This document shows, piece by piece, positions 1 to 47,733 of a stretch of 64,000 nt of DNA. Every line of letters starts with the position of its first letter. Position 1 is the first letter of the stretch. The position numbers were made by a program, and so were the translations under genes. The notes beneath the pieces are model-generated. The model had not been told where the DNA came from. It saw only the letters and a program-made list of their open reading frames with translations, and ran no database searches. The DNA lies in the NCBI RefSeq assembly GCF_002266435.3, contig NZ_CP029426.2, positions 4,370,001 through 4,434,000 of the forward strand. Reading direction: 5' to 3'. This DNA is from Bradyrhizobium amphicarpaeae. GTDB taxonomy: Bacteria; Pseudomonadota; Alphaproteobacteria; Rhizobiales; Xanthobacteraceae.

Positions 1-931
1 GTGCGATCTGGGCGAGCGGGCGGACCGTCCTGCGCACCACGAACAACGCCGCGCCGATACCGATGAGAACGCCGATGGTGCCGAGCACGATGCTCTGCCA
101 CCGCGCTTCCGTCAGGGTCCGGGCGAAGTCGCGCGACAGCACATGGCCGCGCCGATCGCTGACCTCGCGCAGCAATTCGGTGACGCGGCCGATCAGCCGG
201 CCCTCGGTGCCCAGCACCTCGCGGTCGATGTCGGCGATCTGCCGCTCGCGGACGGCCACGGCCATGATGGCCTCGGCGTAATCGTTCACCGCCGACTGCA
301 GCCTGGCATCGCCGATGTTGAATGCCCGCATGCTCTGCGCGGCCTGCTCCGCGGCGGACGGGTTGCGCGCGAGCAGCCCGAGCGCGATGCGGCTCTGCGC
401 CTCCGACAGGCGAGCGGCCAGCTCCCGGTCGGCGGTGCCGGAGACGGCCACGTCGAAGCGGTCGCGCAGCGGCGGCAGGCCGGCAAGCAGCTGGGCGCGG
501 CGGTCGATCAGCGTCGAGATCCGCTCCAGGCCGCTGCGGTAGGTTGCAAGCCGCTCCGTCACCCCGTCGATCATGTCCTGCTGCTCGGGTGCGAGCTCGA
601 TGCGGGTCTTCTTCAGGATGTCGCTGAGCGTCGAGGCCGCCTCGCCGACTTGCTTGAACTGGATGCCGGCGCCGGGATCGGTGACGAAGTCACGCGCGGC
701 GAGCCGCAACTCGTTCATGCGGCGGTCGATGTCTTCGGCGAGATCGCCGACGCTCTGGAGCCGCTGCAGCTCGGCGAAGGTGGTGTCGATGTGCCGGATC
801 GCGATCACGCTCGCGGTCGACGTGACGATGATCACCGCCAGCACCAACAGGAAGCTGCCGAACGTGAGCTGGCCGATGGAGAGCGAGAAGATTCGCTTTT
901 TCTCAGGGATCGGCGTCAATTCGGCGGACAT
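1..931 (-). CDS. Membrane sensor protein, 5' part (chemoreceptor or histidine kinase)
   Basis: The gene runs off the left edge, so about 310 N-terminal residues are visible and the output domain is missing. A first membrane helix lies at about residues 15-37. An extracytoplasmic helical region of roughly 230 residues follows, then a second helix near 280-300. The last visible residues (RRTVRPLAQIA) look like the start of a HAMP linker. This layout is known from methyl-accepting chemotaxis proteins and sensor histidine kinases, and the visible part does not decide between them. The ATG at 931 is the only good start and no in-frame start lies shortly upstream. The ligand is unknown. Confidence 0.75.
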   Translation of the reverse strand, partial: MSAELTPIPEKKRIFSLSIGQLTFGSFLLVLAVIIVTSTASVIAIRHIDTTFAELQRLQSVGDLAEDIDRRMNELRLAARDFVTDPGAGIQFKQVGEAASTLSDILKKTRIELAPEQQDMIDGVTERLATYRSGLERISTLIDRRAQLLAGLPPLRDRFDVAVSGTADRELAARLSEAQSRIALGLLARNPSAAEQAAQSMRAFNIGDARLQSAVNDYAEAIMAVAVRERQIADIDREVLGTEGRLIGRVTELLREVSDRRGHVLSRDFARTLTEARWQSIVLGTIGVLIGIGAALFVVRRTVRPLAQIA

Positions 932-44671: not shown

Positions 44672-45040
44672 TTACTTCTTCTTGCCGGCGATAGCTTTGG
44701 CCGGACCCTTGCGCGTGCGCGCATTGGTGTGGGTGCGCTGGCCGCGCACCGGCAGTCCGCGACGATGACGCAGGCCGCGATAGCAGCCGAGGTCCATCAG
44801 ACGCTTGATATTGATGCCGACCTCACGACGCAGGTCGCCCTCGACGAGATAATCGCGGTCGATCACTTCGCGGATCTGGAGCACTTCGGCATCGCTCAGC
44901 TGATTGACGCGACGATCCTCGGGGATCTTCACCTTTTCGAGAATCTCGCCAGCGATCTTCTGGCCGATGCCATGGATGTACTGGAGCGCGATCAGCACGC
45001 GCTTGTTGGTCGGGATGTTCACGCCGGCAATACGGGCCAC
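44672..45040 (-). CDS. rpsM: 30S ribosomal protein S13
   Basis: This 122-residue protein is S13 of the small-subunit head, with [40 protein letters not shown] and the [11 protein letters not shown] tail. It contacts the large subunit and P-site tRNA. It follows adk by 187 bp. No rpmJ (L36) gene lies between them. Confidence 0.97.
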
Positions 45041-45227
45041 GGCCTTCTCTCCTGTTGCCGATCCCTCGTCAGGAACCGGTCTTTAAGTGCTTGGTTTCTC
45101 GGGCAGGTGTTCACAAACGCGAACACGACGCCCTCCCCCGGTCTTCCTGGGGCCCGGCATCGTTTGAAACTATCCGACTTGGATGCGGGGCTTATTAGGG
45201 GATTCCAGGGGCTTTCGTCAACCGCTG

Positions 45228-46130
45228 CTAGCGCTTGGCTCGCCTTTTCGTGACCTTTTTTACGGCCTTCTTGGCACCCTTTTTGACAGCCTTCCTGGCG
45301 GTCTTTGGGGACGCCTTTTTCGCGGCTTTCTTGACAGTCTTTCCGGCGGCCTTCTTGCCGGCTTTCTTGACCGTCTTCTTGGGGCCCCTCACCGCCGCCT
45401 TGGCAGCTGGCTTGGCGGCCTTTTTAGCCGATTTGGCAGGTTTCTTGGCCGTTTTGGCTGTTTTCTTAGCCTTCTTGCTAGCCTTGGCCTTCTTGGCCGG
45501 GCCAGCCTTGGCTGCGCTTTTGGCGGTGGTCTTGGCCTCCACTGCCCCCAGCGCCAGGAGCTGGCGATGGATGGCGCGGGTGACCTCGTCGATGGCCATC
45601 ATACCGTCGATGGTCGAGAGCTTGCGCCGCTCGGAATAGTAGTGAATCAGCGGTTCCGTCTGGTTGCGGTAGTTGGCCAACCGCTTGGTCAGGACCTCCG
45701 GGGTGTCGTCGAGTCGGACCTCCTCCCCGCGCTCACGCATCTGGGCGACGCGGGTCTCGACACGGTGCAGAAGCGCGCTTTCGTTGACGCGGAGTTCGAT
45801 CACGGCGTCGAGCTTGAGGTGCTTGTGCTTGAGCAGATCGTCCAGCGCCTCGGCCTGCGGCACGGTGCGCGGGAAACCGTCGAGGATGAAGCCGTTGCGG
45901 GCGTCCGGCTGGTCGATCCGATCGGAGATGATTCCGACCACGACCTCGTCGGGCACGAGAGCACCGCTGGCCATGATCTCCTTGGCTTTCAGCCCGACCG
46001 GCGTTCCGGCCGCCACGGCCGCACGCAGCATCTCACCGGTCGAGAGCTGGACGATGCCATAGCGCTCCACCAGCAGCTGCGCCTGGGTCCCCTTGCCCGA
46101 CCCCGGCGGTCCAAGAAGTATAATTCTCAT
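45228..46130 (-). CDS. adk: Adenylate kinase with histone-H1-like C-terminal extension
   Basis: This 300-residue protein starts with a complete adenylate kinase: P-loop [10 protein letters not shown] at 7-16, [10 protein letters not shown], the DGFPRT lid hinge at 84-89 and [13 protein letters not shown]. The short LID (about 127-140) marks the short bacterial type, usually about 190 residues. The last 100 residues are almost only Lys and Ala with some Gly, Pro and Thr ([17 protein letters not shown] repeats), resembling histone H1 or bacterial H1-like tails. Codons are continuous and the stop is clear. It converts AMP and ATP to two ADP, while the tail may bind nucleic acid. Confidence 0.93.
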
Positions 46131-46401: not shown

Positions 46402-47733
46402 CTAGCGGCGGCGGCCGCGCAGTTTCGACTTGCGGATCAGGCCTTCATACTGATGCGCCAGCAGATAGCCCTGCACCTGTGCCACCGTATCCATGGTGAC
46501 GCTGACGACGATCAGCAGCGAGGTGCCGCCGAAGTAGAACGGCACCGAGGCGTAGGAGATCAGGATTTCCGGGATCAAGCAGACGATCGCCAGATAGATC
46601 GCACCGAGCACGGTGATGCGCGACAGCACGTAGTCGATATATTCCGCGGTGCGTTCGCCGGGACGGATGCCCGGGATGAAGCCGCCATGCTTCTTCAGAT
46701 TGTCCGCCGTCTCGGTCGGGTTGAACACGATCGCGGTGTAGAAGAAGGCGAAGAACACGATCAGCGCCAGATACATGATCAGGAACAGCGGACGGCCGTG
46801 GCCGAGCTGGGTGGTGATCCACTGGAACCACTCCGGCCCCCTGCCCGCGTTGAAGTTCGCCACCGTGGTCGGCAGCAAGAGCAGGGAGGACGCGAAGATC
46901 GGCGGGATCACGCCGGAGGTGTTGAGCTTGAGCGGCAGATGCGAGGACTGGCCCTCGAACATCTTGTTGCCGACCTGGCGCTTCGGATACTGGATCAGGA
47001 GGCGGCGCTGCGCGCGCTCCACGAACACGATGAAGGCGATCACGGCGACCGCCATGATGATGACGACCAGGATCAGGCCGGTCGACATCGCGCCCTGACG
47101 GCCGAGCTCGAGCATGTTGGCGAGCGCGGCGGGCAACTCGGCGACGATGCCGGACAGAATGATCAGCGAGATGCCGTTGCCGATGCCACGCGAGGTGATC
47201 TGCTCGCCCAGCCACATCAGGAACATGGTGCCGCCGGTCAGCGTGATCGCAGTGGACAGACGGAAGAACAGTCCGGGGTCGCTGACGACGTTGCCGGCGC
47301 CCTCGAGGCCCACCGCGATGCCATAGGATTGGAACGCGGCCAGGATCACGGTGAGATAGCGGGTGTACTGGTTCAGCAGCTTGCGGCCGGACTCGCCTTC
47401 CTTCTTCAGCGCCTCGAGTTGCGGCGAGACGGTGGTGAGGAGCTGGATGATGATCGAGGCCGAGATATACGGCATGATGTTCAGCGCGAAGATCGCCATG
47501 CGGTGGATGCCGCCGCCGGCGAACATGTTGAACATGCCGAGGATGCCGCCCGCCTGGGAGCGGAACACCTGCTCCCAGATATTGGGGTCGATGCCGGGTA
47601 ACGGGATGTAGGTCCCGAGCCGATAAACGAGCAGCGCACCCAGGGTGAACCAGATGCGCTTCTTCAGTTCGTCAGCCTTGGCGAACGCACCGAAATTGAG
47701 ATTGGCTGCCAGTTGTTCCGCTGCAGAGGCCAT
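46402..47733 (-). CDS. secY: Preprotein translocase subunit SecY
   Basis: This 443-residue membrane protein has ten hydrophobic helices and SecY features: RLGTYIPLPGIDPN, FALNIMPYISASIIIQL, and GYLLAHQYEGLIRKS. It forms the inner-membrane protein-conducting channel with SecE and SecG. Overlap with no other gene; 150 bp and a hairpin separate it from rplO. Confidence 0.97.
   Translation of the reverse strand: MASAAEQLAANLNFGAFAKADELKKRIWFTLGALLVYRLGTYIPLPGIDPNIWEQVFRSQAGGILGMFNMFAGGGIHRMAIFALNIMPYISASIIIQLLTTVSPQLEALKKEGESGRKLLNQYTRYLTVILAAFQSYGIAVGLEGAGNVVSDPGLFFRLSTAITLTGGTMFLMWLGEQITSRGIGNGISLIILSGIVAELPAALANMLELGRQGAMSTGLILVVIIMAVAVIAFIVFVERAQRRLLIQYPKRQVGNKMFEGQSSHLPLKLNTSGVIPPIFASSLLLLPTTVANFNAGRGPEWFQWITTQLGHGRPLFLIMYLALIVFFAFFYTAIVFNPTETADNLKKHGGFIPGIRPGERTAEYIDYVLSRITVLGAIYLAIVCLIPEILISYASVPFYFGGTSLLIVVSVTMDTVAQVQGYLLAHQYEGLIRKSKLRGRRR

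Follow-up and report, generated by a model that had tools for sequence, protein, structure and literature searches.

Among the closest described counterparts of the protein considered here are the H1-like tails of AlgP, PhaF and Chlamydia Hc2, with which it shares a long Lys/Ala-rich, low-complexity basic segment of variable length. In P. aeruginosa, AlgP carries a KPAA-rich C-terminus of the H1-like type, associates with polyphosphate (polyP) granules and requires this C-terminus for granule spacing (accessible part of PMC9239181). On the side of the enzyme, solved short-type adenylate kinases (Adk) such as 8pvw and 1p4s match the core of our protein in sequence over approximately 184-190 residues, and among the 60 PDB matches shown the best stretches end by residue 190, which leaves the tail as an extra part. 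A tailed Adk has already been curated as a family, since our protein scores 482.9 bits with the NCBIfam model NF010381 (PRK13808.1, 'adenylate kinase'; cut-off 426), in a match that spans residues 2-298 and so includes the tail. This model is an equivalog of 335 positions, of which positions 1-300 are aligned; its listed description reads 'adenylate kinase' only and is silent on the function of the tail and on the DNA element described below. Searches of the open-licence literature for tailed Adk and for H1-like tails showed no study of a tailed Adk among the papers listed.

The window, by which we mean the whole stretch of 64,000 nucleotides that was analysed, belongs to a genome of 7.03 Mb in a single contig, and the nearest named protein relatives are from Bradyrhizobium (B. 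symbiodeficiens and B. sp. MOS003). The original prediction of a complete short-type Adk with a basic C-terminal tail of about 100 residues, read in a clean frame up to a defined stop and placed inside the ribosomal operon, held in each of these parts. The minus-strand ORF runs from an ATG at 46130 to a TAG at 45230-45228 and encodes 300 aa with the tail in frame and open; secY lies upstream, and rpsM, rpsK and rpoA, recognised by sequence, lie downstream (Table 1). Pfam ADK matches residues 6-169 with 188.3 bits (cut-off 26.8), and since ADK_lid is not among the nine Pfam families listed for the protein, this Adk is of the short type. Second Adk copies in two Bradyrhizobium genomes (L203 and L205) are untailed and 47 and 51% identical; a third such copy, L204, was not recognised by the pattern used.

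Table 1. Positions of the features at the adk-rpsM locus, numbered along the window.
Feature	Position	Strand	Basis
secY, gene upstream of adk	46402..47733	-	named from sequence
adk CDS, ATG to TAG, 300 aa	45228..46130	-	ORF, translation, family profile matches
Catalytic short-type Adk core, residues 1-192	45555..46130	-	Pfam ADK; untailed relatives stop about here
Polycationic H1-like tail, residues 197-300, net +43	45231..45542	-	composition; charge-preserving substitutions
Cis element AAGGTCACGAAAARGCGAGC, conserved as DNA and translated as KVTK(K/R)RA	45238..45257	-	nearly frozen synonymous sites; constant 36-nt spacing to TTGAC; noncoding copy in tail-lost Nitrobacter
TTGACG, -35-like box of the likely promoter of rpsM-rpsK-rpoA, 6 nt beyond the adk stop codon	45216..45221	-	conservation across loci
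-10-like box CTAATA, 17-nt spacer from TTGACG	45193..45198	-	commonest spacer to YTAW
GC-rich hairpin in the adk-rpsM intergenic leader	45125..45163	-	alignment of 24 chosen loci; fold
Weak Rfam Alpha_RBS (alpha operon ribosome binding site) match at the rpsM start	45008..45083	-	29.9 bits, E 6.5e-5
rpsM (ribosomal protein S13), first gene downstream of adk	44672..45040	-	named from sequence

The 104 residues of the tail comprise 39 K, 30 A, 8 T, 7 V, 5 R, 5 P, 5 G, 4 S and a single E. Repeats of the KKA type, as had been predicted, are present in KKA- and KKxx-like form, and Tandem Repeats Finder gave periods of 21, 24, 36 and 60 nt in this region. The tail is Lys/Ala-rich, although its description as almost only Lys and Ala was somewhat overstated, with K and A together making up 66%. 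Similarly, the term histone-H1-like is justified by a Lys/Ala-rich, basic and low-complexity composition, but no Pfam H1-like model matched the window Adk up to an E-value of 1. From the composition we infer that the tail is disordered. A variable length, foreseen between strains, was found between species: among 94 unique Bradyrhizobium sequences the tail measures 73-107 aa (mean 94.8, sd 6.4), carries 0.405 net charges per residue (sd 0.027) and has on average 1.36 acidic residues.

Relatives do carry the tail, a point on which the original prediction depended: it is present in all 36 genomes of the genus, our own included (match beyond residue 270; in G016 split over two contigs), and since the same kind of tail was matched in all of them, its composition is not due to chance. 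In a sample of the whole family, which we take to be Xanthobacteraceae from its named members Bradyrhizobium, Afipia, Nitrobacter and Rhodopseudomonas, Adk was matched in 291 of 296 genomes. At one locus per genus, a basic tail was found in 27 of the 46 other genera of the family and not in the remaining 19. The rule applied (a minimum of 40 residues and of 0.15 net charges per residue) gave 26 tailed and 18 untailed genera; L102 (tailed) and L078 (untailed), skipped by the rule with S13 not found, were added by reading the sequence. One locus does not represent a whole genus, as Nitrobacter (g44) and g58 show both states; the two g58 genomes, L201 and L206, comprise one untailed Adk and one with a long K/A-rich tail. 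One Bradyrhizobium Adk (L198 in G342) matches only up to residue 183 in the family-wide sample owing to a frameshift in the core, which is either a sequencing error or a real lesion. We rejected it as a tail loss, the tail being intact in another frame, and counted it neither as a loss nor as noncoding evidence, though it is among the eight noncoding rows of the element script.

Outside the family, none of 14 loci, one from each of 14 other families of the order, had a tail. These 14 were looked at for tails out of 24 other-family genomes; the ones left out (G037, G043, G044, G046, G049, G051, G053, G055, G057 and G058) gave mostly split, long-type Adk matches, and G043 gave none. A class-wide PRK13808 search placed at least two of 385 genomes above the cut-off, both from this genus, among the matches listed, and the tails of other Adks could score below this cut-off. 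On a tree of SecY, S13 and S11 the tail states need 10 changes, at least 6 of them forced by starred branches, against a mean of 21 after shuffling. Because this tree contains long-branch artefacts (L055, L091 and L079) and 24 open forks among 60 inner branches, exact numbers of gains and losses are not drawn from it. Part of Nitrobacter has lost the tail, apparently by frameshift: the Adk stops after about 206 aa with the sequence FG(V/I)RRW, and what is left of the former tail persists as noncoding DNA. Of 120 listed relatives of such a tail-lost Adk, 63 have at most 214 aa and 54 have at least 260 aa. Since the tail was lost in part of Nitrobacter and is absent in Rhodopseudomonas sp. B29 (L179), it is not essential and is dispensable on an evolutionary scale.

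H1-like tails also occur on Adks of distant lineages. A Bacteroidetes MAG (L186) encodes a 392-aa Adk with a K/A/V-rich tail, and its adk lies between hpt-like and obg-like genes, outside the ribosomal operon. In a gammaproteobacterial MAG (L185) a long-LID Adk, with ADK_lid present, ends in a K-rich H1-like tail. The best 120 of 2453 relatives of L186 (E <=1e-30) are 371-452 aa long, and their last 80 residues bear 0.44 or more net charges per residue. The search admits 0.55 to 1.75 times the query length and hence could not return untailed Adks, with their length of about 190 aa; it shows tailed Adks of this kind to be numerous but gives no measure of their proportion. Of these 120 tailed proteins of the Bacteroidota type, 15 match PF07382, presumably the HC2 model of the Chlamydia Hc2 type, and L186 does not. 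An acidic segment, LENDIEHLD(L/M)TINDFEVATEIS, lies between core and basic tail in L186, P0242, P0263, P0303 and P0358. The cores of L185 and L186 share 44% identity with the window core, whereas 17 untailed cores from Alphaproteobacteria reach 49-64%. Because the tailed MAG cores are thus more distant than untailed ones, separate gains of the tails are likely and the simplest reading. The two MAGs came up in a search with peptide patterns, two of which derive from the tail, so that they show recurrence and not frequency.

The genome that harbours the window encodes other K/A-rich sequences as well. A search with the tail protein returned adk only and is uninformative owing to low complexity; a KKAxKKA pattern at the DNA level gave four further matches in three other ORFs besides adk. 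A small K/A-rich H1-like ORF, 127 aa as taken, lies near 1144847 (L207, G000:C1), and a K/A-rich ORF of 97 aa with an acidic N-terminus and a KKA C-terminus lies near C1 4360140, about 10 kb to the left of the window (L210); neither has a Pfam match up to an E-value of 0.01. Lastly, a methionyl-tRNA synthetase (MetRS) ORF (L209, G000:C1 ~3682754-3684355, minus strand) has a K/A/P-rich H1-like N-terminal extension of about 150 residues, for which a GTG at 1556 is a plausible start. MetRS was matched in 33 of 34 chosen genomes. The alignment starts at residues 1-16 in eight of nine genus genomes, our own included (in G001 and G015 across one stop), and only at residue 87 in the genus genome G005; at residues 13-35 in the three Nitrobacter genomes G193, G078 and G119, in g49 and in g41; and at residues 43-51 in G064, G096 and G045, each with internal stops. 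In the remaining 16 genomes MetRS aligned from residue 122 or later, with most of the extension missing.

We consider it probable, with real room for doubt, that the job of the tail is to anchor Adk to a polyanion. As a disordered polycation of about 100 residues it would act as a non-specific electrostatic anchor that holds part of the Adk pool on the chromosome, on ribosomes or other RNA, or on polyP, while the core would continue to interconvert ATP, ADP and AMP. Both the anchoring and the choice of polyanion are what we infer from sequence. By analogy, a DNA partner is suggested by the behaviour of other H1-like tails (accessible part of PMC9239181). A special case in which the tailed enzyme is bound to ribosomes or RNA, as part of the translation machinery, and there recycles the AMP made by aminoacyl-tRNA synthetases seems somewhat unlikely. 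The position of adk in a ribosomal protein operon and the K/A-rich extension of MetRS in the same genome speak for it; however, the secY-adk-S13 neighbourhood is common to untailed Adks, the tailed adk of Bacteroidota L186 is found elsewhere, and the Nitrobacter genomes G078 and G119 lost the Adk tail and retained the MetRS extension.

Equally a special case of anchoring, and an unlikely one, is polyP as the polyanion: the tail would fix Adk to polyP granules, in the vicinity of polyP kinases, where ATP, ADP and AMP would be interconverted during starvation. A link between Adk and polyP kinase would fit this view. The association of the H1-like C-terminus of AlgP with polyP granules fits it too, but KPAA repeats are not evident in the tail of the window Adk, and DNA binding is also described for such tails (accessible part of PMC9239181). 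A wider scenario, which we regard as decidedly unlikely, is that Adk has repeatedly been made polyanion-anchored, that Adk and MetRS of the Bradyrhizobium clade, each with its H1-like extension, share a charged scaffold (nucleoid-ribosome or polyP) as a local AMP-recycling zone, and that the 3' codons of the adk tail are of dual use, with a cis-element that couples the promoter of rpsM-rpsK-rpoA downstream to adk.

Anchoring of any kind supposes that the tail functions as a protein. The opposite view, that it is slippage-prone, near-neutral repeat DNA without protein function, draws on the fast turnover of its length and sequence, on its loss in part of Nitrobacter and on the occurrence of a tailed and an untailed genome in g58. 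It is nevertheless very unlikely, given the few acidic residues, the narrow spread of length and charge, the H1-like Adk tails in other phyla and the pattern of substitution. For the latter, 42 disjoint nearest pairs with a core DNA identity of at least 0.90 and non-identical tails were formed from the 94 unique Bradyrhizobium CDSs. K-R (AAR/AGR) and K-E (AAR/GAR) exchanges are single A/G changes in the same codons and would be about equally frequent without selection at the protein level. All 42 pairs together show 60 K-R against 7 K-E changes, and the 27 pairs with a tail identity of at least 0.75 show 32 against 4 (binomial p 1.9e-6 against equal rates); the stricter set of 16 pairs (at least 0.85) gives only 11 against 4, and four pairs at 0.9 or higher give 4 against 0. 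A bias of mutational context could lie behind part of this excess and is unlikely to produce an eight-fold effect.

Over the same 27 pairs, 15 having been dropped because their tails were poorly alignable, dN/dS is 0.224 in the tail, with its last 13 codons excluded, and 0.056 in the core. The tail also has the higher dS (0.355 vs 0.187), which suggests misregistration of repeats or their fast turnover, and misregistered repeats probably add noise to the tail rates. We have high confidence in the translation of the tail and in selection on its charge; its sequence turns over and yet stays basic. This selection for positive charge, together with the recurrence on distant Adks, lends new support to the original reading of the tail.

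The last codons of the tail behave differently from the rest. Its best-conserved end is the peptide KKVTKKRAK, and 89 of the 94 Bradyrhizobium tails end in K(K/R)RAK(R/A). In these 89 sequences codons -10 to -4 are AAA (88), AAG (89), GTC (83), ACG (87), AAA (88), AAG (81) and CGA (88); CGA, present in 88/89 sequences at codon -4, accounts for 4.7% of the 258 Arg codons elsewhere in the tail. The 20-nt element AAGGTCACGAAAAAGCGAGC contained in this end starts 36 nt and ends 16 nt before the TTGAC box. Six Nitrobacter loci without the tail (L067, L192, L193, L194, L196 and L197) have kept it with one or two mismatches at the same 36-nt spacing. Compared pairwise, these loci differ on average by 0.329 per site in the 16-nt spacer next to the element and by 0.296 at third core positions, but by only 0.05 within the noncoding element itself. 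Since it is kept at such low divergence after loss of the tail, the element is constrained as DNA whether it is translated or not. The untailed Rhodopseudomonas sp. B29 has a weaker copy with five mismatches, also at 36 nt.

It is very likely that the end motif is conserved at the DNA level. As the last ten or so adk codons would double as cis-regulatory DNA, KKVTKKRAK would be mainly translated conserved DNA and not a protein motif. The converse, a protein docking peptide with secondary conservation of the DNA, was our first idea from the alignment and fits the fact that KKVTKKRAK is the most conserved tail peptide in many genera, but it was rejected as the main cause and is highly improbable, since synonymous sites are nearly frozen and the motif is kept as noncoding DNA at unchanged spacing after tail loss.

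In a wider comparison, 190 loci passed the patterns for the Adk start and the rpsM start; 167 were unique, and as 94 of these are from Bradyrhizobium the counts are weighted towards this genus. The element lies exactly 36 nt upstream of TTGAC with at most three mismatches in 114 of the 167 loci, with four to six in 4 and with more than six in 49. Of the 34 other genera of the family shown, nine have it with at most three mismatches at this position (g30, g32, g41, g44, g49, g52, g64, g69 and g70). In the remaining family genera and the out-of-family loci shown, it is missing at the 36-nt spacing and the TTGAC box is present; the element looks younger than the promoter. Several tailed genera, e.g. 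g50, g36 and g33, lack the element, and tail-lost Nitrobacter keep it, so that tail and element are separable. Elsewhere in the genome a scan with at most three mismatches gave 14 sites, one of them adk, and the 102 nt displayed downstream of the next-best site (C1:340096, one mismatch) do not contain TTGAC. Since a control with the reversed pattern gave 7 sites, there is no evidence for a regulon of the element.

The TTGACG of the window begins 9 nt past the first base of the adk stop codon; in the Afipia-like g49 and in tailed Nitrobacter the TTGAC box is located within the CDS, where it encodes part of RLTKRR. TTGAC was found in the searched stretch of all 167 unique loci, which is weak proof by itself for so short a word. 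A spacer of 17 nt between TTGAC[GT] and YTAW occurs in 125 of 145 counted sites, and TTGAC-N-(15..18)-CTA occurs in 71 of the 167 loci, whereas simple base shuffles yielded 0.8 on average and never more than 4. The promoter consensus described for B. japonicum is TTG-N(16-18)-TATA (accessible part of PMC4842269), and the predicted rpsM promoter has the features of a sigma-70 type, with TTG, a spacing within 16-18 nt and a TA-rich -10 region conserved across relatives. The TTGACG/CTAATA pair was absent from the output of a simple, stricter sigma-70 scan, because CTAATA fails the rule of that scan for the -10 box. The main text of the B. japonicum transcription start site paper, in its accessible part, does not mention rpsM or adk (PMC4842269).

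Downstream of the -10-like box, the leader hairpin is conserved in 24 hand-picked loci, and the stretch 45110-45165 folds with -27.2 kcal/mol (z -2.96). The Alpha_RBS match resembles the Alpha operon leader (RF00140) in its location at the rpsM start, but with 29.9 bits it remains below the gathering score of 38, and it excludes the upstream element inside adk. Alpha_RBS leaders serve S4-type autoregulation, which by analogy is possible at the rpsM leader. The adk-rpsM region looks like the regulated start of the rpsM-rpsK-rpoA unit: the TTGAC(G) promoter beside the element would drive these three genes, and some factor would bind the element, both the working promoter and the binding factor being predicted from conservation.

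On balance we favour a joint reading, which we rate as reasonably probable, in which the polycationic tail anchors Adk and the 3' end of adk that encodes it also contains cis-regulatory DNA. What goes beyond the original prediction is that the best-conserved part of the tail is conserved as DNA, with a candidate cis-element and a -35 box at or beside the last codons. The anchoring side matters because bacterial lineages far apart share one type of polycationic tail on an essential, normally soluble enzyme; with the Adk tail of one lineage under selection for charge, spatial anchoring of energy-charge chemistry becomes testable; Nitrobacter with and without the tail offer a natural comparison. 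The embedded element provides a clean case in which what looks like a conserved peptide motif is really conserved at the level of DNA; it also hints at an internal promoter of the operon for S13, S11 and the alpha subunit of RNA polymerase. Deletion or recoding of the tail that is unaware of the element could disturb rpsM transcription, and the phenotype would then be misread.

Compared with AlgP, PhaF and Chlamydia Hc2, the tail of the window Adk is different in that it is fused to a metabolic kinase, has no evident KPAA repeats and has no match to a Pfam H1-like model. The Lys-rich tail of actinobacterial topoisomerase I is likewise a basic C-terminal part on a conserved enzyme (accessible part of PMC7398561). 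Topoisomerase I, however, acts on DNA itself, which Adk does not.
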